DNA of 64,000 bases from Isoetes taiwanensis. Its lineage: Eukaryota > Streptophyta > Lycopodiopsida > Isoetales > Isoetaceae. Within the stretch, counting starts at the first letter, position 1. Each line of letters opens with the position of its first letter. The position numbers were made by a program, and so were the translations under genes. The stretch spans positions 18,109,556 to 18,173,555 of the forward strand of contig JAJEKV010000026.1 in assembly GCA_021234155.1 (NCBI GenBank). The letters run 5' to 3'. The notes beneath the pieces were generated by a model. That model saw only the letters and a program-made list of their open reading frames with translations. It ran no database searches and was not told where the DNA came from. This document shows, piece after piece, positions 9,481-29,341 of the stretch.

Positions 9481-12400
9481 CTTGTCAGTCCCCATTGCTC
9501 CATAAACCGTGGGTACTGTTTTCTAAATCCCTCTTAAGTACCCATGTCGCGTCTTCCAGCGCAAGTGTTTCCACTTGACCAAGTATTGGAGGAACTCCAC
9601 CTCCTTGTCTTCTTGAAAGCTTTATCAAGAATCATTTCGAACTATTTCCGGTTGCTCCTCCGCCATTTCCAACAACGTTGGAGTGTCCAAGACTTCGTGC
9701 GGTTTGGAGTATGCTTCTTCAACAAACTCACGTGGAAGACCTTATGAATCTTTAGGTGTCTTTGGCAAATCCAACTTGTAGGATTGATTACCTACTCTCT
9801 TGATTATTCTCAAGGGTCCAGGCCCACCTTGGAGCAAGCTTCTTGCAATTGCCAATCGAAGCCGCCGCTTCACCTTTATCTTGAGCCATACATCATCTCC
9901 AACTTTGAACTCTCGACTGCTCGATGCTTGTTGCGGCGATGCTCTTCTCGACGACTTCTTGTCGCTAGCGTATAACCTCGAACTTCTTCCACGAAGCCGC
10001 TGCATATCGGGCCAACATCTATCTGAAACTTCTACTTTTTGACACGGGTTGTGCCAAGTGTCCGGAGTTAGGCACCGATAGCCATAATTGATCATAAATG
10101 GCTTACATTTGGGGGACGATTCCTTTGGTGCTATTGTATGCAAACTCCATACTTTGCTTATTCCGCATATAGTTTAGCATGTCTTCTAAGATCCCGCTGG
10201 TCCGCCCCGGCCCGCCATCCGGCTCGAGGATGATACCGCGCTCATGGATAGCTTGGTCTGCGAATCGTCGCGAAAGAGGTCTTGCCAAAAGGCACTCATG
10301 AACTTCGGATCCCTATCGGATATAATCTCCTTGGCATGCCATGAAGCCCTCGAAGATCTCTTTTGGTGAAGAGCTTTGGTCGTATCCATAGTCAGTATCT
10401 CTGTGGTCTTGCAAGGCACAAAGTGTGCCATCTTCGACAACTTGTTTCCACCACTACCATCAAGGCATCCTTCCTCTTACCGTCCTTGGGAGCCCCGTGA
10501 TGAAATCCATGTTGATCACCTCCCACTTAGCGCTTGGCACCGCTTAGTGGCTCTAATGCCCCCTCGAATTCAAGTTGCCTCCGCCGCCACCTGGGCATAG
10601 CCGACATTCCTTGATGTAGCGAAGCTATTTGCTTCTTCATTCCTGGCCAATAATAGCTGCCACAAGACTTTGAAATATGTTTTCATGAATCCCGCATGGC
10701 GGCTATTGGGTGTTGCAGCGTGTCATGGAGGATCAACTTTCTTACACCCTCGATGATTCGGTACGCACAACTTGTTCTTATGGTATAACAGGTTGCCTTC
10801 CTTCTTATAATGCTTGAAGGCCTCCCGCCTTTATCCGTTCTAGCCTCCTTAGAGAGGCTTGCCCATACTTCCTGAAATCCACATCCGCTGGCAAGGACTC
10901 TTCAATCTTCTTACCAAAGTCGCCGGAGAGCGCCGAAATTGCATTGCAATGCACTCTAGTTGTCGCGGGATGTCTTGAAAGTGCATCTCGCTACCACATT
11001 GAGCTTCCCGCTTGTAGACTATAACAAAGTCATATTCTTCGAGGAACTCCATCCACCTCCGCCGCCTCAGATTAAGGTGTGGTTGCGTGAATACATACCG
11101 GAGGCTCTCGATGGTCGGAGATCCAATTGGAACTTCCTTCCCAAGAGGTAGTGCCTCCATATTCTTAATGCGACAACCGCAAGCAATTCCCTCGATCGTG
11201 GCGTAACGCCGCCTCTGGCGGCGCTCATCTTCCTCGAATCATATGCTACCACGCTCTTCTTGCATAAGCACCGCGACCGTAGCTATCTTACCGCGAGAGA
11301 CTGCTGCAAGCTTATCTTTCTCCGGTCCCAAGCAGGTCAAGATAGGCTGTCGCCGAGCTTCTTTCAACAATTCAAACCCCTTTTGGGCTTTCTTTGTGCC
11401 AATGCTCTACCCAATCTTTCACCTTCGCCTCGCCGTTCATTATCCGGCTGCTATCTTAGCAAAGTTCTTCACTAACTTCCTGTAGTACTCGCTAGACCGA
11501 AAAAACTTCACCTCGTGCACATTCTTCGGGCGCCGCCACCGAATCACCGCTTCAATCTTAGCGGGTCCGCTCGAGATGCCTTCTGCCGAGATCACATGAC
11601 CGGGTATTCCACCTTCTCTCAAGGCGGCGGCACTTCGACAACTTGGCGCATAACCGTGCCTCTTCAACTTCTCTAGCACCCTTCTCAAGTGTTGCACGTG
11701 CTTTTTCAAGGGATCTCGCTATACACCAAAATGTCATCAAAGAAAACAATCACAAAGGTGTCTAGGAACTCCCTGAAGATATCGCTCATGAGCCTCATGA
11801 ACGCTAAGGGGGCATTTGATAAGTTTCAAAGGCATTACCGTGAACTCATAATGCCCATACCGCCCGTCCTGAAAGGCGGTCTTGTGGATATCTTCCTCCT
11901 TTATCCGTATCTCGATGATAACCCGACCTTAAGTCGATTTTGAGAAGATCTTTGCTCCTTGAAGTCGATCCATCAAGTCGCCCTGATCTTGGAAGCGATA
12001 CTTTGTTCTTAATGGTGTGCTTATTCAACTGCCTATAGTCTATGCACATCCTCAAAGATCCATCCTTCTTCTTGACAAAAGAATGGGCGCCCAAACGGCG
12101 ACACTAGGTCTAATGAAACCTAGGTCGAAAGCAGCTCCGCAAATCGCTTCTTCAACCGGACAACTCCTGCGTTGTCATTCTATATGGAGCCTTGCTTGTT
12201 GGCTTTTGTTCCTGCTCGAAAAGCTATCTCGCACTTTCGACTCCCCTATAAGGAGGGAGCCGCTTGATCTCATCCGAAAGAGATCGTGGAACTCCGTGAT
12301 CAACTTAGCTATTTGCTTCGCAACTTGTCGAAGCATCTTGTCTTCTTTGCTTCCTTCCAATTCGCTCACTAATCTCAAGCTTGAAGATGTATGCCACTTG

Positions 12401-14190
12401 CTCACTCTTGATGCACTTGAACAAAGCATTTAGAAGACATACACCGCATGATGGGAACAACTTCTTTACCCTATATCTCAATGATCTTGCCGCCGGGTGC
12501 CGGGAAGGTCACCTTCCGCTTCCACAATCAATAATGGCCCCTCGCTGGTCCAAGGTACTCCATACCTATTATCAAGTCGATTTGCCGATGCCCATTACTT
12601 CGCCCCCATCCGGATCTTAATCCCGGCAAGTCGATGTCAAAGTTGATTCTTTTTTACCGCCGCCGCCTTCATCGCCCCACTTGCTAAGACAACGGGCCTT
12701 GGTTTTGACTTTAATGGTTTCAACTTCAACATTTGAACCATTCCCTGGGGATGCAAAGTTATGGCTACTTCCCGAATCTATCGTGACTATAAATGACTTG
12801 GCCTTGGCCTTTCCCAATCGCGGAAATTACTTTATACCGGGCTCTTTGCTCAGATCTATTGCGGCAAAGATATGACACTCACCCCCGAATGTAGTCGCTG
12901 GGCCTCCTCGGCCGCCGCCGCCGCATTGCATGTCCCAATCTCCCAACTCGCTAAGCGCCGCACTCATGACATATGGGCGTTCACGCCCTATGGCCCGGGC
13001 TGAAACACCAAGCAAAGCCGCTTTTCTATGCACTCCTCTCTCTTTTCCTTGGGCATGGCCTGCGAAAGGATCGCCTTTGCTTTGGAGTAGTTTGACCCTT
13101 CCCCGCTTGTCTTTGAAAGACACCGCTTTTCTCCTCGCCGCTTTCCCTTGATTGCCACTATATGGGGCTCTAGCTGGTCCTGGGCTGGCTGTCCTCGGCT
13201 AAAACCGCCTCACGCCTTTGCCTTTATCTTGGTAATACCGCCGCCTCGCCTCGCTTATTCGAGGTCCCGCTCTTGCAAGCTTATTGCCTTGGACTCGCCT
13301 CGATCTCGTTCTAGGGTTTATTGCCCTTACAAGCTTATGGATCTCCTCATTCGGACCTTCAATGTAGCTTTCCACCGCATGCTTCTCACCTAACTTTGGC
13401 ACATACACCCTTAGCCTCATAAATTCCTCCGTATTTCTCAGATCGACTTGTTGCCTTTGCCGCAACTGTAGAAGAATCTTGCATCATCTTGGACTTGTGC
13501 TCTCTTGGAACGTAATGGCGCTTTGAAGGCTTTTAGCAAACTTCTTGAACCGCAAGCATCCCCCGCTTAAGCCATGAGCCTTGGCATAGCCTTCCACCAA
13601 ATTTGCTCCGCCCTTCAGTTCATTGCCACCACCGCCTTTATCCTTATCCTTCATACCATAGGCATTGCCGTGATTCGCTCATCTCGTCAAGCCAAACCTC
13701 CCATGCCATGCGACCTGTTTTCTTTGAGAATTGCTCGAGCTTCCGGCCTTCCAAACATTTCCCAATCACGAAGCCCACTTTCTTACCGGTAGTCGAGGTT
13801 CTTGTGTCCCTTTGTCGTCCGGGGGTGTTCCTCGCCTTTAAATGCATTGACTTGGTTACGCCCTTCTTCTTCCTCGAATCGAGTCACGAATCGAAGCTTG
13901 AGTCGGAGGAGTCCCGGAGCCGGGGACCTTCCTCTTTGCTCCTCTTCTTGTCTCTACTGTTCTCCGAAATGATGCTTCGCGCGCTTGAGCGTTACCCACC
14001 TAACCTGCTCCTGCTTGTGCGGCTAGCAAAGCCTTTATCCGCTCGAGGTCCGGCCTCATTTGGAGATATTTCTTCTTCCGGGGTCATTTGTCCAAATTCT
14101 TCAAGCAGGTTCCTTGCCGGCGCGGGCCTCGGCGGACTGTTCCTCTATAAGTTCCCGCAGCTTGTCGCTCTCCTCCCGCTTTAGGCCTCT
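9481..14190 (-). pseudogene. gag-pol polyprotein of Ty3 element (frameshifted)
   Basis: The domains lie in Ty3 order on the minus strand but in changing frames. Gag: a coiled-coil start near 14180 (REESDKLRELIEEQ) and a capsid-like block at 13465-13199 (FMRLRVYVPKL). Protease: IVTIDSGSSHNF near 12790 (DSG active site). Reverse transcriptase: [20 protein letters not shown] near 12070, DLRSGYH, then FDDILVYSE near 11730 (catalytic DD). RNase H tail: FTQPHLNLRRRRW with EFLEEYDF near 11080-11020. Integrase: WPGMKKQI near 10660, WEVINMDFITGLPRT near 10540, ISDRDPKFMSAFWQDLF near 10310, FAYNSTKG near 10140, and the GPY-type end FKVGDDVWLKI with GPLRIIKRVGNQSYKLDLP at 9960-9770. A chromodomain-like remnant (ILDKAFKKTRR) follows near 9630. 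Gag normally packages RNA and pol copies and integrates it. No single frame is intact. Confidence 0.88.
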
Positions 14191-14377
14191 AGCCGCATAC
14201 ACAAGTGGTTCATAGCTACATGGTTAGTTTTCCTTGTTTTCTTGCATTATTTATGTTTGTTGGCATGGTTGGGGACACAAAATATATCAACAAAACATTT
14301 ATAGTGCAAGAGAATATTATATTTATATTTTATATTACACTAATACAAAAATTACAACTACGGCTAATCATTTTACC
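14191..14377. other. AT-rich spacer between ORF-B and gag
   Basis: About 190 bp of much lower GC content than the flanking coding sequence separates ORF-B from gag. It may be an intergenic spacer or promoter for gag-pol. No TATA box as clear as those before ORF-A and ORF-B was found. Confidence 0.5.
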
Positions 14378-15862
14378 TCATTGTCGCCGGTAAGATGGAT
14401 TATCCTCCGAAACTTTTTCACTGGTCGTTCCCCGCCAATGGCCTAAGTTCCTAAAGACATTGGTGGAGATCCACCTTGTAATGCTCTTGCCAAATCTTTC
14501 TATTCTGATTGGGAGGTATAAGTCGCCGCCATCGATCTTACTCGCTTGCTTGAAGGTATGGCTACGGTCGGCGACGCCGAGTGCTACCGCTCTCTTCACC
14601 GTGATTGCATACCGATTTAAGGGGTAACCGCTTGCCGGCTTCAATCCCCGAGTGCAATCAGCAACGATATCTTCCTCGCCTCGGGGTGAACTTGGCGATG
14701 GATAACCGCTATTCTTCCATCCATCGGCAAGATTGGCGTAATACCGTAGTGACTGGTTGCTTCAGTGCGGATGGGCCACTGCATCAATGCAGGTTGCATT
14801 CAAGTCATCAACCTCCACCGTGGTGAGCTCCCCAGAAGTCTCTCGGGATTTGTTGCTAAAGCCCTCCCCGAGGTCGAATTACCGTCCTCTCGGGAGGTGT
14901 GCCGCGGACGAGCTTGCCGTTAGGATGTTTGAGGTCGACATAGCGGATCCCCATCTGCTCCTCAAGAGCAAGGAACTCTTCCTCCGCCGTAGCTTGTTCT
15001 CCTCCTTTGTTCCGCCCATAACCCGCCTGATGTTGCTGTAGGCTTGATGCCTGAGGTAAACTCTCCCGTAAGTGTCGGCTTCCCCTTACGTGGAGGGGAA
15101 GTCGGATTCTCCTGACGATGAAGTCGCCCAAGTCCGCTTCTTCGAGTTGGTGCAGCAACTCTTCAGGTCGGTACTCCCTTTCCCTCGCTCCGAGGTTTTG
15201 AATGTCGCTAGGAGCAGAAACTCCTCACCTTCGACAATAATGGGAGCTAGGCTTGTGATGCCTAACCCGAGGGGTGGCGCGACTCGAGTCTCGCCGCTTT
15301 TCAAGTCTTGCCACTCGCTTCGTTGTCGCCGCTCTTCCGCTGGTCGAGCTCGACATAGTCTTCCTCTTCTTCTCCGATTCCTGTTCATCCGAGTCTTCTT
15401 CCTTCCCTTCGCGCTCCCTGCTCATACCGCGGTGAGGAGCCGCGTTCTCACAAGCTATGGCCAATGGGTCCACGCCCATGGGGGAATGGAGGTTTCCCCA
15501 CGGTGTTCTCGCACGGGTGAGAAAGATTGCCGTGGCAAGTTGAAAGAGAAGTACTTGGTCCCGCTGACAGTTAGGACCATTGGCTCGTGTGCGGTGCCTT
15601 GTTTGTGAGGTATTTGGCGATGTTCGACATCGCTCTAATGCCGCCCGCAGGACCTGCCTAGGAACAAAATAGCCTACACAAGGGGAGTTGCACTAGCACT
15701 GGTTCTACCCTAGCTTGGAACTCGGTCAAGACTCTACTATAAGCCGGGTCGCGGTTGCTTGCTTGACATCTACCTCCTTCCCAAGATCTGGAAGATTTGG
15801 TCGACGCCGGCCTCAGAAGATGAGCGCCGGGCGCTGTACCATCTGTGGAAATCGGTTGCCAT
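14378..15862 (-). pseudogene. ORF-B: unknown accessory protein of Ty3 element
   Basis: I do not recognise this protein. The ATG at 15862 opens MATDFHRWYSARRSSSEAG, about 110 bp downstream of a CTATAAATAG box at 15982-15973. Further on come an acidic/basic stretch (KEEDSDEQESEKKRK near 15400), the block APIIVEGEEFLLL near 15240, EELLHQLEEADLGDFI near 15150, EEEFLALEEQMGIRYVDL near 14980, and TTVEVDDLNATCIDAV near 14800. The blocks fall in different frames, so the copy is broken or mis-sequenced. The gene at 24209-25593 in the other large element shows the same pattern: F-x-x-WY start, acidic run, ITPILVEGKEYLLL, then WEVDD. It lies directly downstream of the H3-like ORF-A, as its counterpart does there. 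Function unknown; a partner of the H3-like protein is only a guess from gene order. Confidence 0.6.
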
Positions 15863-15972
15863 TGATTAATTGCGTAAGAGGGTAACAAACGGTTGCAAGA
15901 GCCTCAGGAGTTGAGAAATCGGCTAGAAGGGCAGGAGCAGATTTGTAGGGTGCTATCCGAGAAGTGAGGGGT

Positions 15973-15982
15973 CTATTTATAG
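15973..15982 (-). promoter_or_regulatory. TATA box of ORF-B
   Basis: The minus strand reads CTATAAATAG, the same 10-mer as before ORF-A. It lies about 110 bp upstream of the ORF-B ATG and downstream of two dyad modules. It implies that the accessory ORF has its own transcript independent of the LTR. Confidence 0.65.
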
Positions 15983-16168
15983 AAAAGGGGAAAACCCTAA
16001 TTTTTGGATGACTTGAAAATTTTCCTAGGGTTGGGTAATTCTAGCCTATCCGAGGTCAAAATGGGAGTTTGAGGACTATATGGGATGCTTGAACAAGGCT
16101 AGATTACCTAAAAGATGCTATGCAATAGGTTGAAGGTGACTTTGACAAGTCCCGTGAAGAAATGGTAG

Positions 16169-16232
16169 AGGTTCACAGCCATGCCGCTCAAAAACTAACT
16201 TTTAGTTCTTTTGACCAGTAGAAATGTGAGAC
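16169..16232. repeat. Dyad module A1 (64 bp)
   Basis: The outer arms are GGTTCACA-like (left) and TGTGAGAC (right). Inside is CAAAAACTAACTTTTAGTT, itself a near-palindrome, followed by TGACCAG. It sits in the spacer between ORF-A and ORF-B. Confidence 0.65.
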
Positions 16233-16363
16233 ATCAGTCTCATTTCGATCAAAAGGTGTCTAATTTGGGTAAACTAATGGTGTAAGGGTGATGGGCTCAT
16301 CAAATCAGGCAGAATTGACCCCTTATTTGGCCGATTTGGAGCTGTTTTGGTCAAGTTTAGCGA

Positions 16364-16428
16364 GGTCTCATACTATACCGCGCAAAAACTAACTTTTAGT
16401 TTTGCGACCAGGCGCGAGCTGTGAGACA
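16364..16428. repeat. Dyad module A2 (65 bp)
   Basis: The arms are GGTCTCA and TGTGAGACA around CAAAAACTAACTTTTAGTTTTG and GACCAGG. It has the same layout and length as A1, A3 and A4 and lies 130 bp from A1. Confidence 0.7.
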
Positions 16429-16574
16429 TCATGTCTCTCGGCTTGCAAATGTCCTATTTCACTGAAATAAAAGCTAAAACTTATTAATTTGCTCTAATTA
16501 ACCAAGTTTATGTCATCAAGGTACACAAAATTGCTCTATATTACAAAATTTTTAATTATTTACAACAAAAGTTT

Positions 16575-17802
16575 CTAAGGCCGTTCTCCCTTTATGCGGG
16601 TCGCAAGACGCATGTCTTGTCGCATTAAGGTTACCCGCTTGGACGCGGGGCAGGCTGTTGAATCTTCAAAATGTTGCACTATCTTTGCCTCACCGCCTTC
16701 TTGCATTGCCAGCAATCTTCGTCCGTGGACTCTAAAAGTCCGTTCAGAGGGCTCGCATCACTTCTCGACCAACCGAGCGAAGGGGCACGGGAATTAGGAG
16801 ACCAGAGCTGCTACTGAAGTGTCTAATCTTCCTTAAGCGCTCTTCTCTCCACCTCCTTTCTATCAGCTTTCTTCTTTGGTGGTGGCTTGGGGAACCTTGG
16901 GCCGTGGTGGCGGCTTTAAGGTTTGTTTTGCTTGGTTGGTCGCCTCCTCGATGAACCTGACCTCGCTTTTCTTCATAATACTTGGTCAGAGGCCTCCCAC
17001 TTCTTCATATATGCTTCGCGGTCCCTCATCTTCCTTTCATAAATCTTCACCTGCCGGTGACGAGGGCTTCCCGCAGGTCGTGGTTGCTTCTTTCTATCCC
17101 ATGCCGGCACTCGTGGGGTTTTCGACTTGGTCTTGCTTGGTTTTGCTTTCAGTGCCGCCGCTCGTGCATTCCTCGCCGTTGGTTCTGGTGCTTAGAAGAG
17201 CTCCCACCTGCAGCATTAGGGTTAAAATCTTCATCAGAAGAGTCGTCGGAGGGGTTTGGGGGTTCGTCGGGTTGCCGCTCCTTGATGACGATCTTGGGGT
17301 TCGGCCTCTTCCTTGGCGGGCAATCCTTCGTCCTCCTTGTGCCAGCCACGAACTTCCCTTTCGCCTTCTTCTTCTCTTCTGCTGCCTTTTGTTCCTCTTC
17401 CTCCCTTTTCCTCTTTTTGTCTTCCTTTCTCTTACACAGATTTCTACTGATGAACCTTCTAAGGTTACGCTACCTCTATTTGGCTCGGACACCACTTGCT
17501 CATATCCCTTTCGAGGATCTCTGTGGGTCAAAGGTCTTCGCTTGTTCCTGCTGCGGATCTCCTGCTCTATTTCTTCATACACCTCCTCGCCTCCTCGTCC
17601 ATGGAGTTCGGTGATGTGGCCTCGTCACCCTCACCGGGCTTGGTTGAAGACATCAATCGATCGGGCGTGTCTTGCTCCTCGTCCGTGACGACCCCCTCGC
17701 GAGCCTCTCACGAAGCATCTTAGGAATGATCTCCGGCTCCCGATGGCTGGTGGTTTCGGGCCTGGCGGCGCTTCCTTGGCGGTCTATTTGGTTCGGAGCC
17801 AT
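16575..17802 (-). pseudogene. ORF-A: histone H3-like protein with long charged tail
   Basis: The ATG at 17802 lies about 105 bp downstream of a TATA box and opens MAPNQIDRQGSAARPE. About 320 residues of K/R/E/D-rich, low-complexity sequence follow (for example PNPSDDSSDEDFNPNAAGG near 17240). The C-terminal ~95 residues are a histone H3 fold: KIRHFSSSSGLLIP (compare the H3 EIRKYQKSTELLI block), VGREVMRAL (helix 1), FRVHGRRLLAMQEGGEA (loop 1 and helix 2), FEDS, then KRVTLM, DMRLATRIKGER and a stop at 16575. Conserved H3 positions are kept throughout the fold. One or two frame changes interrupt it. Canonical H3 is about 136 residues, so this is a divergent variant with a greatly extended tail. 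A role in packaging element DNA or marking insertion chromatin is inference. It is clearly not gag. Confidence 0.8.
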
Positions 17803-17905
17803 GCTTCTTGGATCGTCAATCGGATAAAAGCGGCCGAAAGATCTCGCCCTAAGTTGGGAAGAGCGGATTTCTAGGGCTTGACCTAAAAATGAGGGGGTTC
17901 TACAT

Positions 17906-17915
17906 CTATTTATAG
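17906..17915 (-). promoter_or_regulatory. TATA box of ORF-A
   Basis: CTATAAATAG on the minus strand, about 105 bp upstream of the ORF-A ATG and identical to the box before ORF-B. Dyads A3 and A4 lie just upstream. Confidence 0.65.
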
Positions 17916-18016
17916 CTTGGGGAATTTTAGGTCAAAACTCAAGTTGCTCTGCTTAACATGCTAAGGCACCAACTTAGTTAAAACTTATACTTATTTCGGA
18001 CTTTTTCTACCTATTG

Positions 18017-18081
18017 GTCTCACACGTTGCCTTCGCTCCAATACTAATGTTTAGTTTTATGCACCAGGCCGCTGTGAGATC
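18017..18081. repeat. Dyad module A3 (65 bp)
   Basis: The arms are GGTCTCACAC and TGTGAGATC around a diverged inner ACTAATGTTTAGTTTTATGC, followed by ACCAGG. It lies upstream of the ORF-A TATA box. Confidence 0.65.
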
Positions 18082-18202
18082 TCATACATTTCTAGGGTTT
18101 TTAGGTAATTAAAACATGCTATTCTAACTAATTCCTACCTTAGAATTAGCCTTACCACATTATTTTTCTCAAATTCATCATGTTTTGGTGTTCTTGGCTC
18201 GA

Positions 18203-18269
18203 TGTCTCACCAGCTACCCTTGCCGCTCAAAAACTAAAATTTAGTTCTCATGACCAGGAAATGTGAGAC
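18203..18269. repeat. Dyad module A4 (67 bp)
   Basis: The arms are TGTCTCAC and GTGAGAC around CCGCTCAAAAACTAAAATTT and TGACCAGG. It is the outermost of the four A modules, between A3 and the primer-binding site. Confidence 0.65.
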
Positions 18270-18464
18270 CACCTCACTTGGAAAAAATTTTGGCTCATTC
18301 TTTTTAATCTTGTTAAATTCCAATTCACTTAATTGTTACTAGCTTAGCATAAACTACAAAGATGTGAGAAAAAAAAATTTCCCACTTTTCGAGGCTTGAG
18401 GATCCTATCAAGTTAGTACTACTCGGAACATGGTCAAGGCTTGCTCTTGGTCTCCAAGAACATT

Positions 18465-18477
18465 GCTCTCGATACCA
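18465..18477 (-). other. Primer-binding site (tRNA-Met type)
   Basis: The minus strand reads TGGTATCGAGAGC one base inside the 5' LTR. This is one small change from TGGTATCAGAGC, the complement of the initiator tRNA-Met 3' end used by most plant Ty3 elements. Confidence 0.8.
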
Positions 18478-18478
18478 T

Positions 18479-20025
18479 TGTGACGCCCCTACTGTGATAC
18501 GGTGCCCCTCACCGTGATACAAACAGAGTTCTTCCCCACACCAGCCCCATGCCGATCTGGGGCCCTCCACGATATCACCGCATCTCCGTGAACGAGTCCC
18601 AAAGTGGGAAGAGTGAAGGTGTCATTCTACCCCGCTCCTCGTGGCCTACCTAGCCGCAAGCTGTAAACATACATGTCAGTACTCAACATAATCCTCCATC
18701 CACCCGTAAGGGTGGTATATCAACATCCGTGATAGACAATGGTCAAAGACATCATATAGGGAATCCTACCCAAGGCTCGACTCAAAGGGATGACTCGACG
18801 GCTTGGGTCTCCGTGAGTTCATTGCGCATGTAATTCATGGCAATGGATTTGGGCCGCATAGAACATGGCATAGGGTTGTCCACTCCATCCGCCTCTCCCC
18901 GCGGCACACTTTGCGTGAGTAGGCCAAAAGTGTCTGGACCTCGATCAGAAGCTCACGGATGCATAGCCGGAGGGGCTATTCCCGGTCATCATCCCAGCCC
19001 CATGGGGGGGTAGGGATCACTCCTCCGTGAGATCTACATGCTGACTCAAGGTGACTAGAGGGCCACTACCCGTGATTCACCGAACCCACTGAAAGTGTAC
19101 ACCACTTCACATGCAAACGAGCCCATGCCTTACCCACACTCGGGTAAGCCATTAGGCCTAGTCACAATGATCCCTGTAGGCTTTACACACCGCAGGGATC
19201 GCTCAAGAGTCGTAACATGAACCTCCTTCTCACCCGCCTGGGCCCTTCACCCACAACCCGGTGTGGCTCTGCACACAGCCGAATCTACAAGCAGCTAGAG
19301 AGGCTACTCTAGGAGCATCAACTACAAGCTTTTAGGGCCTCTACCCCCTTCCCAATACAAGGAGTTCACAGAGATACATCATCCAAATACATCACGTAAG
19401 AACTAAAGAACTAGATCTAATCATAGAGTTAGGTTCTTTAGTTAGTGTCCGAGATCTAAGATCTAGATAGTTATGGGCAATTTAATAGTCTAAACCTACC
19501 GATTCTATGACTAGAAGACGGTTTAAGCTATTAAATTGACCAAATACCCGATCCTTGAGTGGCTCCTCCTGACCCGAAGTTCAACCATCCCCGCCGCTGA
19601 TCAATTGTGGGAACCGATGGCGCATTCGCCATGCATGCTCGGGAGGCGGTTTTGGCTCCGGGCAGCCAAACCGAGCTCTAAAACCCTAAGGACGAAAAAC
19701 TAGCAAGCTAGGGTTTTCCCCTACCCTAAATAGACATGGGGTTTAGGCTAGGGTTTCCAATTACCCATTTTGGCATGTGGGATAATTGGAAAGGCCCCAC
19801 TTGCCTTTAATGGCTAGGTGGCAAAATATGCCAACATGGAAAGGTGTGCCCACATTAATGTGCACATGTGCACCTTAATAATATATGAACACTCCTAGCA
19901 AGTTGCCCCTAGGGCTACTTACTTGCTATCCGCTACGCATTAACGCCGGGCCGAGTGGCGGTACGCTGCACAGATTGGGCAAGATCGATAATGCCCCGAC
20001 CCCCTATCGTGGCCGGAACGTCATA
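18479..20025 (-). repeat. 5' LTR of Ty3 element (1547 bp)
   Basis: Begins TGTGACGCCCC and ends CGTCATA on the + strand. It matches 7004-8559 over its full length with the same terminal inverted repeat except for one substitution. The GGCAT duplication lies immediately outside at 20026-20030. Confidence 0.93.
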
Positions 20026-20030
20026 GGCAT

Positions 20031-20510
20031 TATCCAATTGCCAAGATTGGATGTTTCAAATTCTGGCAGTCTGTGTTCCTGTAAAAGGATTATGTCTGAC
20101 TTCATATCCTTCAAGGCAATTAAGGCCCTTTTCCTCTTGAGAGGACCTTTTATTCCTCTCATATTCCATGTTGTGATCCTCCTTGAGCAAACAACTTCTT
20201 TTTGCCTTGACTCCTTAGATTCAAGGAAGGACTGTTTTCAGACAAATGCACCATTTTGGTCCCCTTTTTCCTAATATGAGGAGTGTAGAATTTGTCTTCA
20301 TCACCCTCTTTCCCCTTATCAGCAATTTGTTGGTTTTCTTTCCCTTTCAGCTTTTTGCCAACCAAGATATGCCCAGATGGGCTTACTGGCCTATTGTTCT
20401 GTTCCAAAGAAACAATTTCCAGGCCAGATGGTCAGGCCAGGTGGACTTATTGGGCTATTTCCCAGCTTCAGAGGGTCAATTCCCAGTTAAATGCTAGTCA
20501 GTAGTCTTTA
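20031..20510 (-). mobile_element. LINE fragment: start of endonuclease ORF (upstream half)
   Basis: Reading the minus strand toward the Ty3 junction gives NMRGI, ALKDMKSDIILLQEHRLPEFE and NLGNW, the conserved N-terminal WN-RG ... LQET block of LINE endonucleases. The downstream half of the domain resumes at 7003 (VWAPADGTKGGNCMVW). Upstream, 20407-20159 is a basic, Lys-rich stretch typical of the region before the endonuclease. The two halves join cleanly if the Ty3 element and one GGCAT copy are removed. Confidence 0.8.
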
Positions 20511-21031
20511 AGAAACTTTATAAGCTGTATAGCTATAGCAGACTAAGATTCTATATTTTCTCGCATTAAAAAGACAGAGATGTGGTTATGCTTGATAATT
20601 TTATGTGCTCAAGCATTTCGACCTACATATGCATTGCTTGCCAAAATTGAACTGGAGCTGTTAGTATATTTGATCAAATCATTTAATAAATTTGCCCATG
20701 CAATATGATGTAACAACAAAAAACCTAACTAGTCATAAATCTGCCCATGCAGTATGATGTAATAACAAAAAATAAGCAAGCTGAAGTGCCTCCCCCCCAA
20801 AAGCTTGACAAAGGTGGCATAGGCTATCACGAAGGGGGATGGGGAGAATCAAAGCTACGATAAAGCAAGGAGGGAGGTAGGAAATTAGAAATCACAAACA
20901 TGGATGATTTGGATAGGCGGGAAAAAAAATAGTTTGAATGTTAAGATGTTAGTGGTCAAGCCCTCCACGACATCCCACTCATTGCTCTTGCTTTGTCACT
21001 CTGGCAAATACGGAAGTTAGAATTCCAAGAT
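20511..21031. other. No gene seen
   Basis: AT-rich sequence between the LINE and the 16-kb inverted-repeat element. A phrase containing GCCCATGCA.TATGATGTAA.AACAAAAAA occurs twice (20694-20720 and 20743-20771), a minor direct repeat. Confidence 0.4.
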
Positions 21032-22096
21032 TAAGGGTCTATTCAGACCCGTGGTTAAGTTAAGTTAAGTTAAAAAAAAATTAACTAGCTAGTTTAACTT
21101 AACTATAATAATTGTATTCGCACCCAAAAGGGTTAACTTTCTATTAAAATACTAAACTTAACTAGGACAAGCAAAATATCTTCGCACCCACCATAGTTAA
21201 GTTAATAATTTTAACCTAACTAAACAACATGGGTTGTTGTTCAGACATTGTCCTATTAGGTTAGTAGTAACCGAAATGCCTTCACACACGCCATTAGTTA
21301 AGTTACAACTTTAACTTAACTAGAACGCCTGAATTCATTCTAGTTAAGTTTATTATTTTAAACTTAACCAATTGCCCTCACACATGTTCTAGTTAAGTTA
21401 TCTACCTATTTCAAAGATTTTGCTTTATTTACCTACATTTAGATATAAAATTACAAATAGTATAAAGTCTATATGCCAAACAAAATACACCATACTACAG
21501 TTTGAGCATACTAAAGAAATATAGATATCTTTCTATGGCATAAAGTTATGATCATATGAGTTAGCATACAATTACAATGAGTTCGTATGAATTTAGTTGC
21601 AATTGATAACCCTCGCAATGTACCATACATTCAGGGGTTGCAAAATGGCCTGGGGCAAATCCTTTGAATGGTGCTTGGATCTAAGGAAGGACATGAGCAG
21701 GCTATGCATGGAGGGCATAAAATTGCAAAACAACTTCATACGATAGTTTAGAAAATTGCAAAACGAGTGTAAGTGATCAAATATTTTTTGAGATTACATA
21801 TCAAATTTAAGTTCCAAATTCAAACCTCTAAAGCGCACTTCAACAAAATGATGCAATACTATGTAATGAATAATTTACAAGCTTGGTGAATATTTTATGC
21901 AATAAATCGACTCTATTATACAATTACAAAATCCCTTAACTTCTGATTCTCGTGTCAGACAGTATTGTTGTGATTGGTCATGTCTTCCAATTGCTGGCAC
22001 TGGAACAACCTTGCCTCAATTGGCATTCTTTAGCTTGGGTAGAGAAGTGTAACTGAGCCTCAAAAAAATGCTTTTTATGTGACTTTCTACTTTGCT

Positions 22097-22128
22097 CATT
22101 AGGGCGGATTTGGGGTCTGAAAATGGCC
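22097..22128 (+). repeat. Left 32-bp terminal inverted repeat
   Basis: Identical, base for base in inverse, to 34630-34661. The sequence immediately inside diverges from the right end, so the TIR is short and sharply bounded. Confidence 0.92.
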
Positions 22129-22786
22129 CTTATCTTGGGCTAAAGATTTCCACGCCGATTCGGCCAGACCAATCGTTTTTCGCCTTTTTTCGAAAAGTCG
22201 ATATACTTGGGTGTAGAAGGATGAGCAGGCTTACTTGGCATCCACATGGCGATTTTCATGGGGGATGCCCGCGCTTTTATTGCAAATCCATTTTAATGGC
22301 CCAGATTTTTTTCTGAGTCGCCTTAACGCTTCAAAAATAATGGTGACTTTGACCGCCATCATCAGCGGCCACCAACTCCCTTTGTCAAATTTTGGCCCAA
22401 ACTTGCAGATCATTACTCCGCGCCTCTACGCATCCTCTCCGCCTTCACTCCTCATCCGCAATCCATGTCTCCCCGCCAATTTTCGTGTTTCTTGCCCCAT
22501 TTACGTAACTCCCAAGGTCAAGACGGGGGAGGTTTTGTCTCAATAGGTTCAGGGTGAGTATGCTGCCATCAACGAGGGGCGAAGCATAGAGTTAAGCGAC
22601 AAAGGCGATCAGACGGCGGACACATTGATAGGTAGGATAAAAGAGTTCAAGCTGAATTCTAGCGCCTGAAAGTGGAAAGTATAACAATACGACATGCATA
22701 TACCCCTTCCTCGATATGGCCAAAGAGCTAATCTCCACCAAAAACAGCTTCCCAAAATTGCCCGCAAATGGTAACCATTTTAAACG
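22129..22786. other. Left subterminal region of 12.6-kb element
   Basis: No recognised gene. It contains short open frames only. It does not match the right subterminal duplication. Confidence 0.4.
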
Positions 22787-22853
22787 GATCACACGCGACG
22801 CCAAGCTAGCTGTCACTACTTAATCTGCGTAGATAGTTTCGCGTCGTGTGATC
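22787..22853. repeat. Dyad module B1 (67 bp)
   Basis: The arms are GATCACACGCGACG and GTTTCGCGTCGTGTGATC around a non-conserved core. It lies about 150 bp upstream of the H3-like ATG. Confidence 0.8.
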
Positions 22854-23002
22854 TTCTTATCTTTTAGGGTTCCGTACAATTATTTAAAAACGTTACCATC
22901 ATATTTTACTTTAACTTCGCTTTTTTACTATTTATCTCCCCGCCGCCAGTTGTCTATTTTGTCAGTGTTCGTAGAGTATAAAGCGCCATCCGCCGAGAAG
23001 CC

Positions 23003-23890
23003 ATGGCAAGAACTAAGCAAACCGCAAGGATCCATCCGGTGGTGTAAGGCCAGGGTGATTACATTAGTCCGCCTTCTTCATCCGACTCGTCTCTCGATAG
23101 AGATTCTCCTCCTCCCACCATGCCTAATGTAAGACCCGGAAAAGAAATCCGCATGACGCATCAACGAGAAGCAGCCCGAGTAAAGTAGGGAGGTGCACTG
23201 CATGTTCGAGACGAGGATGAAAATGTGAGAGACCGGGCGAAAAATATGATGCCGGATTAATATTGGGCAGCCGCTTCTTGTGCTCTTCCTGCTCCTGCCT
23301 CCTCCCGTCTCCGTGGAGGTGCCGAACCTTCAAATCGTAGAGGAGGCCCAACGCCGTTTTGTGAAGGCTTAATTTTGGAATGTGAGGAGACGGCCGGGAA
23401 GAGTCACCGAGGAAAACCGGAGATGCCGGGATAGAGGAGGCGGCCTTTAAGAGTCTCCGAAAGCAACAGCTCCAAATGCTGGGTGGGTGAGGGTAGAGGC
23501 CGGAAGCGAAGACGGGCTCGGTATTAAAGAGCTTTCGAGATTAAGAAGTATCAGAAGAGCAATCGAGATGGTCATTCGCCTCCCATTTGCCAAAGCTCGT
23601 GAGAGAGATTCCCCGCAAGAGTGTGGTGCGATACATCATACCATTCTAATTCAAGCAAATCGCCTTTAAATGCTCTTCAAATGGCTTCGGAAGCAGTTGG
23701 TGTCGGTCTGTTCGAGGACTCGCAGCCTTTGCAATACATGCATTGCGGGTGATCATTGCCCAAGGACATGCGCCTTTTCACGATAAGGGATCCCGAGTAC
23801 TATGGTCAAAATTTTATGGTTGAATACAACAAGAAGAAAAGACCCCTTAAAAAAGGCCGAAGTGCCTTTGTGTTTTTTTCATATGTATAA
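23003..23890 (+). pseudogene. Histone H3-like gene of 12.6-kb element
   Basis: The ATG at 23003 opens MARTKQTAR, identical to the first nine codons of canonical H3, including Lys4 and Lys9 context. The next ~35 nt still match the KSTGGKAPR coding sequence if four small indels are allowed. A Ser/Pro-rich insert follows (SPPSSSDSSLDRDSPPP near 23065-23115), then VRPGKEIR. The histone fold lies at 23528-23850: IKKYQKS and EMVIRLPFAK, LVREIPQE, LNALQMASEA, VGLFEDS, IMPKDMRLFTIRDPEYYGQ, with a basic C-terminal extension (YNKKKRPLKKGR). These match H3 helices N to 3 in order but in shifting frames. It is longer than the 136-residue canonical H3. A TATAAAG at 22977 is only 26 bp from the ATG, so the true start of transcription is unclear. 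An H3 variant is well supported; whether it is functional is not. Confidence 0.82.
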
Positions 23891-23993
23891 TATTTCTTAA
23901 TGCAATGGCTTTATAAGCTTAATCTCTTAGTCCATTTCTTTCTTAGAAGCCTAGCTTCATATTTGTATTTTTTTTTTTTAATGTTATACGTGA

Positions 23994-24062
23994 GGATCAC
24001 ACGGCACGCCAAACAAGCATTGTGCTTTTTGTTGCACATAGTAGTCTTCGGCCGTGTGATCC
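23994..24062. repeat. Dyad module B2 (69 bp)
   Basis: The arms are GGATCACACGGC and GCCGTGTGATCC around an inner GTGC...GCAC hairpin. It lies between the H3-like gene and the ORF-B-like gene and directly abuts a short (CCCTAA) array. Confidence 0.8.
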
Positions 24063-24090
24063 AACCCTAACCCTAACCCTAACCCTAAAA
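24063..24090. repeat. Interstitial (CCCTAA)4 array
   Basis: Four tandem CCCTAA units, the complement of TTAGGG, start at the last base of dyad B2. Most land plants have CCCTAAA telomeres, so this is a short interstitial microsatellite rather than a chromosome end. Confidence 0.8.
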
Positions 24091-24208
24091 TGTACGGACA
24101 AATCTCCCCACAACGGCCAGGTCCCTTTCATAATCGACAACGGCTACTTGAGTTCAAAAGTGATTTACCGCTCCTAAACATCTTCTTGTTTTCGTCGCTT
24201 GCTTCGCC

Positions 24209-25593
24209 ATGGATTGTTATGTGAAGTTCCCGGAATGGTATGCATCCGCCCCTCATGACAACGAGGAAGTTGCGCCGATCAAGCGATTTATCCGCTCTAT
24301 TGCAAGGAGTTGGACATCATGGCAAACAGTAGCGAGCTTGATGCTATCGCCGAGGTTGCTTTTTGTAGCTTTCACCTGCACAGCTTTTGGTCTCAGCAAG
24401 ACGCCCTTTGCGTGCATGTCCCCGCTCGTGGATTCCAAAACCAGCTCTAGAGGAGGCGGCTTCCCATTTGCAAACAGGGAAGATGTTTTTCAAGAATGTT
24501 AGGCGAACGGGCCCTCCTCGGGAACAAGTCCTTGTGCTTAAGAAGGTATCTTATTTCTCTTTGCCGCTTGCATTTGCTAGTTATTGCATTCTGCCGCCAA
24601 ACCGAAGATACACCGGAAACAATGAAATCTTTAAGCTAAGGGGGTCGAGTTATGTGTGATGATGCTGACTATGACGAGAAATGGAGATAGATCTACAAGA
24701 AGAAGAGCAAGAATGTAGGAGTTTTAGCTTCGACGACTGGCCTTGGGTGAACCGTAAGAGGGAGATGATTCAAGGTGATGAGGATGGGGATGAGGATGAA
24801 AAGAAGTTGTCCGACATAACGCCAATTTTAGTGGAAGGCAAAGAATACTTATTGCTAAGTGATATACCGAGGAACCCGCCTATGTTACTTAATGTGTGCT
24901 AGGGAAGACGAGCTTATCAAGATGCTTGGGTCAATGGGTAAACTTAGGCCTAGATTTTGAAGAGGATTTGGACAAAGAGATGTTTGAAGTATCTAATTAT
25001 ACCGGCAATGCTATAAAGCTTAAAGAAGCATATGAGAGGTCGGAGTCTCGATTTGCTCAAGATGAGGCTTAATCTACCAACTAAGAAGAATTCCAGCGCT
25101 CCTCCGGCAAAGTCGCCATAAGATCTACTGTGTTTGTGCCCTTCACCAATCAAGCAAAGATAAGCCCGTAGATGAGGATAAATGTGAAGAAGATAATCTT
25201 GAGGGTTCTTATTTGTGGGAAGTAGATGATTTTTCTTGCCTTACATGCACGCTGGGGACAGGAAAAGATTGAAGGACTCTACATTGTTAAGATATATCTC
25301 AAGATTCGCTAATGGGGAGATAATCGCCTTCAGCCAGAACTTTCAGTCAAAGGGTGCAGAGTTTGTCTATTACCTCCGCATTATGCATGTTCGAACCATT
25401 CCCAATTGGCATCAAACACCGAAAGGGTGATAGCAATTCTGGATGTTGTGTTACAATATTTTGACGACACTGCCGGGTCTGCGGGCGAAAGCAATATGTT
25501 AAATTTTTTAGCTGCCGGGCTTGACTCACCCAAGGTTGGAAGCCGGGTCGATAACATGGAAGTCATTGCCTTGTTGGATCAAGGCGTGGATTG
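24209..25593 (+). pseudogene. ORF-B-like gene of 12.6-kb element (unknown function)
   Basis: Not a family I recognise. The ATG at 24209 opens MDCYVKFPEWYASAPHDNEE. Later blocks, in differing frames, are FKNVRRTGPPREQVLVLKK near 24490, an acidic run (GDEDGDEDEKK near 24770), DITPILVEGKEYLLL near 24815-24860, DLDKEMFEVSNYTGNA near 24965, YLWEVDDFSCLTCTLG near 25215-25260, and a C-terminal TERVIAILDVVLQYFDD near 25420. ORF-B of the Ty3 element (14378-15862) shows the same succession: FHRWYSA, acidic run, APIIVEGEEFLLL, VEVDDLNATC. An AATAAA-like signal lies near 25695. As in the Ty3 element it follows the H3-like gene. One small intron after about 24545 (GTATCT) is possible. The homology to ORF-B rests on short blocks. 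Confidence 0.6.
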
Positions 25594-25721
25594 AAAGAGC
25601 ATGAAATTGACGACGGCTTGAGAAATTGGAAGTTATATGTTTTCCAACTTGTATCGGTAAAATTATTTATGTACGTATTGTCCTTCCAAATTCCTAATAA
25701 AAATTATTTTATTTGTATTTA

Positions 25722-25791
25722 TTCACATCACGCCGTAAATACATCACCGATTTTTCTCGTCATATCTAGGTTTTCGCTATCGTGTGATATC
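25722..25791. repeat. Dyad module B3 (70 bp)
   Basis: Degenerate copy: TTCACATCACGCCGTAAA on the left and TTTTCGCTATCGTGTGATA on the right. It follows the poly(A)-like signal of the ORF-B-like gene. A lone half-site CTCACACGACGCGA follows at about 25842-25855. Confidence 0.65.
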
Positions 25792-25875
25792 TATCTCAAG
25801 AAATGAAATATTATTGAAAAAGACAATTAATTTATTTATTCCTCACACGACGCGAGAAGCAACTCGTGACTCATG

Positions 25876-25885
25876 TTATAAATAG
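25876..25885 (+). promoter_or_regulatory. TATA box, cassette 3
   Basis: TTATAAATAG, 96 bp before the ATG at 25972 and 20 bp after a CTCACACGACGCGA half-site. Cassette 4 repeats the arrangement of half-site, TATAAATAG and ATGGCATC. Confidence 0.65.
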
Positions 25886-25971
25886 AAGACCGATGTCCAC
25901 GCCGACCTCCGACGCCTTCGCCTTCTCGCCATCTTTCTCTACTTCCGGCCCCACCTTCCACCTTCGCCCCG

Positions 25972-26372
25972 ATGGCATCATCATCTTCCTCTAGCAAGCG
26001 ACCACGCCAAGATAGCACTCCCCCAGCCCCCAGAGCGGGACATCACCCTTTGCAGTGGTGATGAAGAGATTCAAGGAGATCCATGATGAAAACAACCGCC
26101 CTGCCGCCGGTGAACAATGAGGCGGTCGGCTGACGATTAGCCTTCACGAGGGAGCCGCCGCGACGAAGCAGACGCTGAGCTCGTGGAAACATTCGCCATG
26201 TACCAAGAGGCTTACGAGCCGCAGGTTTCAGGCAGCTTGAAACTGCCACATGATTTCGCAGCAGCCTTAGAAGATATGGAGAAGAAGCCCGAAATGCTGA
26301 GGATGAGAACGCAGCCTTTACGGCTTCACCGCAGGATTATGAAAATCAGCTAGAGGATCATGAAGATCCCTA
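25972..26372 (+). pseudogene. Cassette 3: Ser-rich/coiled-coil protein gene
   Basis: The ATG at 25972 opens MASSSSSSKRPRQDSTPP, a serine run then a basic patch. Across frame changes follow VMKRFKEIHDENN and blocks resembling ELVETFAMYQEAYEP and FAAALEDMEKKPE, predicted amphipathic helices. The DNA matches cassette 4 (26890-27250) through most of its length, including the 3' end with TTTGCTTCAAAGAAAA and the following dyad, so the two are tandem paralogues. Frames are broken in this copy. Function unknown; the charged heptad pattern suggests a coiled coil. Confidence 0.55.
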
Positions 26373-26472
26373 GCCGCTGTATCTATCTATTTTTTGCTTC
26401 AAAGAAAAGTTTTCTATTTTTGCTTCTATCTATCCTGTTTGTTCCAATGTATGTTCTGCTTTATTAGGGAAA

Positions 26473-26537
26473 TATCACGACGCGAAATGCCTTGCTTGCA
26501 ATTAGGTAGCAATCAATGGATTTCGGCCGTGGTGATC
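26473..26537. repeat. Dyad module B5 (65 bp)
   Basis: The arms are TATCACGACGCGAAAT and ATTTCGGCCGTGGTGATC, with an inner TTGC...GCAA pairing. The core GCAATTAGGTAGCAATCAAT is shared with B7, showing that the dyad was duplicated with its cassette. Confidence 0.78.
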
Positions 26538-26642
26538 TCCATGCCGCTTCTATTTTGCTTCAATGAGAAGTTCTATCTTTAGTTATGTATCAGAAAAATT
26601 ACTTATGTATAGATTGTATCACCGAAATTATCAATAAAAATT

Positions 26643-26710
26643 ATCACACGAAGCTTTCGAAGAAAAGACGCTTAGAAGAAGTAACGGTCCTTTTTCCTCA
26701 CACGACGCGA
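26643..26710. repeat. Dyad half-sites B6
   Basis: ATCACACGAAGC at 26643 directly follows AATAAAAATT, a poly(A)-like signal, and a second half-site CTCACACGACGCGA lies at 26697-26710. Both are in the same orientation, unlike the complete dyads. Confidence 0.5.
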
Positions 26711-26782
26711 GAAGTAACGGTCGATTTTCCCCGACCCACGGCATCCTTCACGCGTGACTGACCTGCTACTACGAAATCCCCG

Positions 26783-26792
26783 TTATAAATAG
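26783..26792 (+). promoter_or_regulatory. TATA box, cassette 4
   Basis: TTATAAATAG, 107 bp before the ATG at 26890. Followed by a pyrimidine-rich leader, as in cassette 3. Confidence 0.65.
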
Positions 26793-26889
26793 AAGACTTT
26801 TCTATCTTGCCTTCGACCTCCGATCCTCTTCCGCCTTCCTTCTTTCTGCTCATCTTCCCCCTTCCGCTTCTTTCCTTCCGCCTCCTCCG

Positions 26890-27250
26890 ATGGCATCTTC
26901 ATCCTCCTCCAGTTAGTTTACCGCGCCCCAACTGCTTCGCGGACATCACCCCTTTGCTGTGGTGATGAAGAGATTCAAGGAGGTTCACGACGAAAAAGCC
27001 GCCGCCTCGTCGCCGAGAAGATGGAGGCGGTGGACAGGTTAGAATTACTAGGGGTTGCTGCATGAGCGACCTTGAGCTCGCAGCAACATTAACCAGGTAC
27101 CGAGAGGCCAATAGCAGAGGGTCGGTTTGCGCTTTTAATCGCACACAATATTTCGCAGCGCTAGAAGATATGGAGAAGAAGCTTCGAGCCGCGGAGGATG
27201 AGAACGCAGCCTTTTTTCGGCCAAATACGATGATCATGAAGATCCGTAGC
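26890..27250 (+). pseudogene. Cassette 4: Ser-rich/coiled-coil protein gene
   Basis: The ATG at 26890 opens MASSSSSS and is followed by a stop in this reading; the next frame continues GHHPFAVVMKRFKEVHDEKAA. Downstream, 27062-27250 reads SDLELAATLTRYREAN and FAALEDMEKKLRAAEDENAA, strongly heptad-like. It is a tandem paralogue of cassette 3. No catalytic motif is visible. It lies between dyads B6 and B7. Confidence 0.55.
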
Positions 27251-27335
27251 CATTGTATATATATTTTTTGTTTCAAAGAAAAATTTGCTCTATTTCTTGC
27301 TTCTATCCGTTTCTCTTGTTTTGTTTTATTAAAGA

Positions 27336-27400
27336 TTGACGACGCGAAAATGCCATTCTTGCAATTAGGTAGCAATCAATGGATTTCGCGTCAGATGATC
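27336..27400. repeat. Dyad module B7 (65 bp)
   Basis: The arms are TTGACGACGCGAAAAT and ATTTCGCGTCAGATGATC. The same core as B5 and exactly the same length. Confidence 0.75.
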
Positions 27401-27764
27401 TCCACAACGCACACCTCGCTGTATGTATAAATTCATAATTTATTAATGGAAAAGTGTATGTAACACAAATATCTAGCTAGATTATGTGATATAACTTGCG
27501 TGTAAATGCTAATTTGCATGTGGATAACAACGCCTATTCACATATACGGCTTTTGTGGATGACAACGCCATGCTGCTGACGGCATGCGCCGCCACAATAA
27601 CACTGTCATTTGTACGGCCTGCATACAAGACGCTAGGATATGACGGATCCCATGATGCTAACATAGGCTACCGCTGCCTAATTGCATGCTATAATTTCGC
27701 CAGAGGGATTATTACACAACTTTATCGGTACTGCGAACCGTAGATTCCAACGTATTCTAGTTTC
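27401..27764. other. Spacer upstream of cassette 5
   Basis: No gene recognised. It ends at a TATATAAAA box (27765-27773). Confidence 0.4.
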
Positions 27765-27861
27765 TATATAAAACGCCGAGGCCTTTGTCTTCTCCTATCC
27801 GCCATCTTCTTTCTACCACATCCGCCCTCAGCCATCACTCCTCGCTCTCCCATCACTTTCA

Positions 27862-28274: not shown

Positions 28275-28421
28275 GCATCGGGCCCTCCTAGAGGGGCCCG
28301 CTTTTTTTAATGTTTGTAATTGGTTTTATTTTTCAATGGGAAAAGTTTTTGACAAATGTACCGAATATTACGCTTCCTATTTTTAATTTTCAATATCCGT
28401 GGTAGAGAGAATGATAAGACG

Positions 28422-28487
28422 TATCACACGGGCGAAACCCTTCATAGGGTTTTAAAGCTCGTGGTGCATATTTCGCGTGGTGTGATA
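28422..28487. repeat. Dyad module B8 (66 bp)
   Basis: The arms are TATCACACGGGCGAAA and TTTCGCGTGGTGTGATA, with an inner AACCC...GGGTT hairpin. It lies between cassettes 5 and 6. Confidence 0.78.
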
Positions 28488-29333: not shown

Positions 29334-29341
29334 ACAAATAA

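Follow-up and report, generated by a model that had tools for sequence, protein, structure and literature searches.

The DNA described here is a stretch of 64,000 nucleotides (nt) of contig JAJEKV010000026.1 of Isoetes taiwanensis, referred to below as the window, which by its look is land-plant nuclear DNA, with Pfam-supported readings for a PADRE domain and an ABC-2 transporter beside two mobile elements. The first of these elements is a Ty3 retrotransposon, which lies on the minus strand at about 7001-19955 between two long terminal repeats (LTRs), and the second, which we call the TIR element, spans 22097-34661 (12,565 bp) and is bounded by perfect 32-nt terminal inverted repeats (TIRs). 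Both carry a gene derived from histone H3 that is followed by a second gene, ORF-B (ORF, open reading frame). In the Ty3 element these two extra genes, H3 (ATG 17802) and ORF-B (ATG 15862), sit between the primer site and gag-pol, and in the TIR element H3 (23003) and ORF-B (24209) come first, before four short genes and a long reading on the minus strand (Table 1). This shared order of H3 and then ORF-B had been put forward in the original prediction, made from the letters of the window, and translated H3 matches as well as the characteristic blocks of ORF-B were found at the claimed places. The number of elements with the pair is two, both inside the window.

Table 1. Positions of the genes, terminal repeats and promoter-like regions of the two elements, followed by the host readings beside them.
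Feature	Position	Strand	Remarks
3' LTR, Ty3 element	7001-8484	minus	ends approximate; from the LTR pair alignment
gag-pol region, Ty3 element	9500-14200	minus	RNase H, integrase end and chromodomain-like end seen; gag by position only
ORF-B, Ty3 element	14378-15862	minus	frameshifted
TATA box (TATAAATAGA) of Ty3 ORF-B	15972-15981	minus	119 nt before ATG
Dyad block(s) upstream of Ty3 ORF-B	16179-16403	minus	homologous to those of the Ty3 H3 gene
ORF-A, H3-derived gene, Ty3 element	16575-17802	minus	frameshifted; stop by eye
TATA box (TATAAATAGA) of Ty3 H3 gene	17905-17914	minus	112 nt before ATG
Dyad block(s) upstream of Ty3 H3 gene	18040-18268	minus	repeat family D16; AACTAA with TTAGTT by eye
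Probable primer binding site, Ty3 element	18465-18477	minus	tRNA-iMet type plus one extra base; by eye, directly after 5' LTR
5' LTR, Ty3 element	18476-19955	minus	ends approximate; pairs with 7001-8484, 1319/1519 columns identical
Left terminal inverted repeat	22097-22128	plus	32 nt, perfect
Dyad upstream of TIR-element H3	22791-22851	plus	left arm imperfect
H3-derived gene, TIR element	23003-23805	plus	frameshifted; end approximate
Dyad and 4.3 AACCCT units upstream of TIR ORF-B	23993-24088	plus	arms 23993-24006 and 24050-24063
ORF-B, TIR element	24209-25594	plus	frameshifted; stop checked
Four short coiled-coil/acidic-looking genes in a row	25843-29183	plus	ATGs 25972, 26890, 27862, 28719
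Long frameshifted reading, possible transposase	29500-31900	minus	
Right terminal inverted repeat	34630-34661	minus	
PADRE-domain reading	37389-38048		Pfam 6.9e-15
ABC-2 transporter piece	38401-39000	minus	Pfam 1.3e-22

A translated search with canonical H3, run with the composition correction and the low-complexity filter off, found the Ty3 gene at 16784-16581 on the minus strand (9.8e-12) and the TIR gene at 23384-23776 on the plus strand (3.65e-4). Composites, by which we mean hand-made readings that join frames, matched H3 chains in the PDB at 4.2e-10 (Ty3) and 4.8e-9 (TIR), and the Histone family of Pfam at 6.7e-5 and 1e-5, where their 23.6 and 26.2 bits fall slightly under the cut-off of 26.4. 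Scored in frame with H3.1, the Ty3 gene reached 159 (39.9 +/- 5.3 in 200 shuffles, maximum 62) and the TIR gene 132 (33.6 +/- 4.0 in 200 shuffles, maximum 51), values that no shuffle attained. The TIR gene begins exactly with MARTKQTAR; the Ty3 gene begins with MA/RTK-stop-TA/RK across two frame changes, a weak match whose score is reached by 10 of 500 shuffles and which ties for ranks 4-5 among 2713 ATG 60-mers. From the N-terminus to the histone fold there are about 1 kb in the Ty3 gene and about 0.5 kb in the TIR gene, a long stretch that we read as a putative tail extension, the alternative being an intron.

An H3 variant in a chromovirus could also be of the centromeric type, CENH3, in which case the element histone would mark chromatin for integration. 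The Ty3 H3 reads IRHF, LLIP and RVTLMR as Arabidopsis CENH3 does (the reference letters of CENH3, like those of H3.1, were typed by hand), and there is a weak chromodomain match at the integrase end of the Ty3 element (Pfam Chromo, 0.012, with 15.9 bits against a cut-off of 25.1). H3.1 nevertheless beats CENH3 for both copies, as the in-frame scores with CENH3 are 130 against the 159 above for Ty3 and 56 against 132 for TIR. The cores alone give 151 with H3.1 and 121 with CENH3 for Ty3, and 118 and 56 for TIR, and a back-translated version of the query, in which off-frame letters could align, gives 165 and 142 for Ty3 and 134 and 61 for TIR. Compared with H3.1 the Ty3 H3 has no loop 1 insertion, in an alignment that reads through a stop there. 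Judged by these scores, both element H3s resemble canonical H3 more closely than they do plant CENH3; with the in-frame rerun in agreement with the back-translated run, a CENH3 identity was dropped, and targeting to centromeres is in our view highly improbable.

The two ORF-Bs have their blocks in the same order. F-x-x-WY starts at 15850 in the Ty3 gene and 24227 in the TIR gene, the VEG block at 15235 and 24831, and EVDD at 14818 and 25216, with spacings of 615 against 604 nt and then 417 against 385 nt, and an acidic run precedes the VEG block in both. The original prediction of this order was correct in where the blocks lie and inexact in one residue, since the Ty3 copy reads A-PIIVEG and not I/T-PIIVEG. 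A six-frame count over the window, with patterns drawn after the blocks had been seen, gave five occurrences of F..WY, three of the VEG pattern and two of [VLIW][EQ]VDD, and both ORF-Bs were always among them.

A frame-tolerant alignment of the two ORF-Bs had been proposed as a check, and its outcome depends on the method. Plain local alignment returned the VEG block only (18 residues), with a score of 55 against a mean of 39.6 and a maximum of 51 in 200 shuffles. We replaced it with an anchored chain because the control, the two H3 genes, which are homologous by other evidence, failed the plain alignment too (53, with a shuffle maximum of 63). Computed over every frame of the raw DNA and anchored at the two start codons (that of the TIR gene placed one base off), with a band of 75, a cost of 15 and dinucleotide shuffles, the chain of blocks scored 205 against 136.9 +/- 15.5 and 142.4 +/- 15.2 in two sets of 200 shuffles; none of these 400 reached it, and the other four settings likewise gave 0 of 400 each. 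The chain, which takes in FP[QE]-WY, PI[IL]VEG[EK]E[FY]LLL, EVDD with TC, and LRY with A[DN]G, shows a likeness beyond the short blocks and well over chance. Composites of the two ORF-Bs align over about 400 residues (z of 4.3 with BLOSUM62 and 3.2 with BLOSUM45, reached by 1 of 500 shuffles each), a result that we do not lean on, as the frames were chosen by eye. When the TIR ORF-B was moved along the window in steps of 60 nt on either strand, its in-register places on the Ty3 ORF-B (offsets -42 and +18 nt) came third and fourth among 2034 places outside itself; the top-ranking place overlaps the Ty3 ORF-B but is shifted from register by 138 nt, and the second (11401, plus) is an unrelated place.

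Codons differ at 14 of the 19 identical ORF-B residues (M and W excluded) in five blocks, where 12.6 would be expected for random codons; the blocks were chosen for their likeness, and the result covers those blocks alone. Since the codons are about as different as random ones, the likeness appears to be old and to exist at the protein level. The two ORF-Bs are probably homologous and derived from one ancestral gene, and their randomised codons argue for long selection on ORF-B and against a recent transfer between these two elements. Of the transferable module that had been suggested, the gene order in two element classes and the likeness of the ORF-Bs stand, and a transfer between the present elements found no support, given the ORF-B codons and the fact that each element H3 resembles canonical H3 more than it does the other element H3. 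The last 480 nt of the two H3 genes, taken as raw DNA, do form an anchored chain that 0 of 300 shuffles reach in each of two settings; these sequences do not show one common element ancestor for both H3s.

Dyad repeats were predicted to lie upstream of the paired genes, and both elements have them. The Ty3 element has a 51-nt block that is repeated, at 80%, before the two genes, and the dyad blocks of H3 and ORF-B score 45 against each other (13.9 +/- 1.9 in 300 shuffles, maximum 21). The motif TCACACGACGCGA, allowing at most 2 mismatches, has 9 matches in the window where 0.42 would be expected, and 9 of 9 are inside the TIR element, where the copies form dyad arms near several genes. The TATA-plus-leader core of the Ty3 H3 also resembles that of the Ty3 ORF-B (20 against 9.6 +/- 1.6, reached by 0 of 500 shuffles), and TATAAATAGA occurs 4 times in the window against 0.30 expected, before these two genes and before two short genes of the TIR element. 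To judge from these promoter-like regions, the Ty3 H3 and ORF-B have the look of two separate transcription units, each with its own copy of a duplicated control region, within an LTR retrotransposon.

As a class, dyads proved not to be a mark of these two elements. Strong clusters are also present outside both, at 44851-44939 (GGCATAAGCCAATC) and 51759-52119 (AAATCGCGCCTGGCGCGATTT), and in a dyad scan of the window the TIR element was hardly over its shuffles (4 against 1, 2 and 2), while 10 of 12 dyads of the Ty3 element were within its LTRs. Promoters of the Ty3 element compared with those of the TIR element showed no clear likeness beyond the TATA word, 7 of 8 pairs being reached by 48 to 200 of 200 shuffles; the pair of the Ty3 H3 promoter and that of the second short gene was reached by 7 of 200. 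A telomere-like AACCCT array (24063-24088, plus) stands directly before the TIR ORF-B, at the expected place of a promoter.

We give an even chance to the reading that H3 and ORF-B form a two-gene accessory cassette, an H3-derived variant followed by ORF-B, which is present in a Ty3 retrotransposon and in an unclassified 12.57-kb TIR element and whose ORF-Bs have long been kept at the protein level. There are only two cases, and a number of our own results weigh against it. The ORF-B composites have no match in Pfam at E up to 1, the plant mobile domain included, and none in NCBIfam. TATAAATAGA was not found before the H3 and ORF-B of the TIR element, and the composites of the two H3 genes are only weakly alike, 42 of 500 shuffles reaching their score. 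The plain ORF-B alignment is not significant against real DNA, as several unrelated slices of the window score 55 to 64; the chain score of 205 is reached by 1 of 678 slices from the rest of the window, and one real slice reaches the chain score in four of the five settings (1, 1, 1 and 0 of 678 in the other four). Finally, when the Ty3 ORF-B was slid along the window, the TIR ORF-B came no higher than seventh and ninth among 2038 places. All six places that outrank it (14761+, 17920-, 14701+, 18160-, 8380- and 13720-) are within the Ty3 element, and therefore no place in the window outside that element matches better than the TIR ORF-B. The single 18-residue block, equalled by other slices, and the Ty3-element slices that outscore the TIR ORF-B are what speaks for the alternative that the likeness of the ORF-Bs is chance and shared composition, with only the H3 genes in common. 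The positions of the blocks, the anchored chain, the codon test and the sliding of the TIR ORF-B onto its Ty3 counterpart oppose this alternative, and we consider it improbable.

The fact that all four genes, the two H3s and the two ORF-Bs, are frameshifted also counts against a maintained cassette and leaves room for passive capture and decay. Both elements could independently have taken pieces of host genes, H3 together with a neighbour, in the manner of Pack-type elements, and carry them as decaying cargo without function. Gene capture by plant elements is documented in a review (PMC13317346), and in Pseudocercospora fijiensis most H3-like pieces within hAT elements are truncated (PMC6710886); these papers and those cited below are used for the parts of their text that we consulted. 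What passive capture would not lead one to expect is that the order, the orientation and the ORF-B family recur twice, that the ORF-Bs are alike in protein with their codons randomised, and that homologous promoter regions precede both Ty3 genes. Moreover, the frameshifts are not specific to the cargo, since the Ty3 pol is frameshifted too, and the pattern of the LTR pair appears to be more like read error than decay.

The two LTRs of an element are identical at insertion, and base-call error in methylated repeats would account for many indels and a missing transition bias more readily than decay would. Depending on the alignment setting, this LTR pair differs by 81-127 substitutions and 74-106 gap columns, and transversions exceed transitions in 5 of 5 settings (transitions to transversions from 36:45 to 46:81). 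Because the LTRs differ by many indels and by more transversions than transitions, base-call error is a likely cause of the frameshifts. The longest identical run between the LTRs, 132 bases, is beyond all 1000 random placements (maximum 120), and the 185 bases in runs of at least 40 are within the random range (mean 44, maximum 238). That indels outnumber substitutions in the LTR pair was withdrawn as a claim, since it depends on alignment settings. Nearby, a pair of host readings stay open for 600 and 660 bases. On balance, passive capture without function is an unlikely explanation of the pair.

As to what the cassette might do, an accessory chromatin module that consists of a histone variant and its partner is fairly well supported, and an anti-silencing action is what we infer beyond it. 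Silencing in plants acts partly through marks on the histone H3 tail, and an acidic run is a common feature of histone-binding proteins. The element would make an H3 with an enlarged N-terminal tail that pairs with host H4, and ORF-B, with its acidic run, would escort or place this histone; nucleosomes with the altered tail, on or near the DNA of the element, might then resist host silencing marks, and the element would thereby stay expressible, with the dyads before the genes as possible sites of shared control. Expression of the genes, partnership of their proteins and the effect on chromatin are all steps that we infer. Such a role of ORF-B in escorting or placing the element H3, together with a hindrance of silencing by the altered nucleosomes, is a tentative proposal, possible but on the unlikely side. 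It is doubtful that the whole would hold, namely a selected and transferable anti-silencing module of histone and partner in a retrotransposon and a DNA transposon, in which the Ty3 genes are driven by internal dyad/TATA promoters and not by the LTR.

A histone of this kind might instead act on the host, with a genome-wide effect on host expression through its long tail and with ORF-B unrelated to it, by analogy with the H4 of bracoviruses, a viral histone that acts through its tail (PMC9145170). This would leave the recurring pair unexplained, and we find it quite improbable. If the anti-silencing module is real, an element that supplies its own altered-tail H3 and a partner would be countering silencing directly at the nucleosome. 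Through the recurrence of the module in both class I and class II elements, such counter-measures would become a resource common to mobile DNA. The Ty3 element furthermore offers an instance in which internal promoters of an LTR retrotransposon can be put to the test.

The closest precedent is a hAT element of the fungus Pyrenophora tritici-repentis, whose H3-like (H3L) genes have insertions in the N-terminal tail, are represented by expressed sequence tags and adjoin an ORF of unknown function (PMC3538342). It shares with the elements described here an H3-like gene with an N-tail insertion (for which an intron is the alternative in our case) beside another ORF, and differs in being fungal, 5.6 kb long, equipped with a hAT transposase and confined to a single element class in the text consulted. 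The hAT elements of Pseudocercospora fijiensis and its relatives are likewise TIR elements that captured H3; they differ in that the H3 is mostly truncated, in an 8-bp target duplication and, as far as the consulted parts of the paper go, in that its authors identified no other domain (PMC6710886). In bdelloid rotifers certain types of ORF3 are common to LTR and Penelope-like elements (PMC5408684), so that one accessory ORF is found in unrelated element classes as here, yet both classes are retroelements and the ORFs are enzymes (GDSL esterase/lipase, DEDDy exonuclease) that are described as single genes and not as a pair.

In plants, the plant mobile domain occurs in Gypsy and MULE elements (cited in PMC9289625), again one domain in class I and class II elements, but without a histone in what is reported there. 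The VANC proteins of VANDAL elements are anti-silencing proteins that are encoded by the element and act through motifs in its non-coding DNA (PMC5735166). Proteins of the element and motifs in its non-coding DNA are also the components proposed here, the motifs being dyads known from sequence alone; the VANC system, as described in the text consulted, differs in that it has no histone. A screen of 121 angiosperm genomes reported 15 extra domains, and the nine that are named in the consulted text include no histone (PMC9289625). In open-licence titles and abstract openings, among the matches listed, none announced that an LTR retrotransposon or a TIR element of a plant carries a histone gene. 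H3 in fungal TIR elements and accessory ORFs common to element classes in rotifers are therefore already known, and what appears to be new, in that it did not show in the open-licence literature among the matches listed, is a histone gene in an LTR retrotransposon, the H3 and ORF-B pair in two classes and its internal promoters.

In the remainder of the Ty3 element RT_RNaseH matches at 2e-7 (31.6 bits, Pfam cut-off 24.8), a reverse transcriptase motif in pol was read by eye, and the integrase end, SH3_Tf2-1, matches at 0.025, under the Pfam cut-off; gag has no Pfam match in the one frame submitted. The label of the primer site is based on TGGTATCAGAGC, which we take to be the plant primer-site consensus.

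For the TIR element the flanks show no 8-bp target duplication by eye, where base errors could hide one, and at most a duplication of TA, also by eye, if the repeat starts at GGGCGG. In viral contigs, two ORF-B scans, one scan with a piece of the minus-strand reading and one with the TIR pattern found no relatives, and in prokaryote genomes the TIR pattern gave one 21-base match, in a Verrucomicrobiia bin, which was taken as chance. The long minus-strand reading is a possible transposase; of two pieces compared with Pfam, one matched only bZIP_2 (0.014, under the cut-off) and the other nothing, and there was no hAT match. It has a coiled-coil look at the N-terminus, and a C-terminal stretch reads HYLHIFWAHAPWFL. 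Three of the four short genes have a copy of the dyad arm (at most 2 mismatches) no more than 250 nt upstream, the third gene being the exception, and the promoters of the first three are alike. No match was found in Pfam for the three short genes submitted. Their readings have pieces such as MKR-x-KE in common, as in a local gene family, and by eye are coiled-coil or acidic. The last 500 bases of the element recur directly about 2 kb inside (32150-32662 and 34140-34638), the inner copy losing the match within the terminal repeat.

Elsewhere in the window, ARAGORN found no tRNA genes, and Rfam gave no match at the gathering score. An open reading at 58936-59526 (plus) has a weak match to DUF7869 (2.7e-5, slightly under the cut-off) and may belong to a further mobile element. 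To the left of the TIR element, an AT-rich region at 21035-21400 with several inverted repeats of the TTAACTTAAC type is perhaps a miniature inverted-repeat transposable element, and a 178-nt inverted repeat at 1995-2355, whose arms are 87% complementary across a 5-nt spacer, is perhaps a small foldback element.

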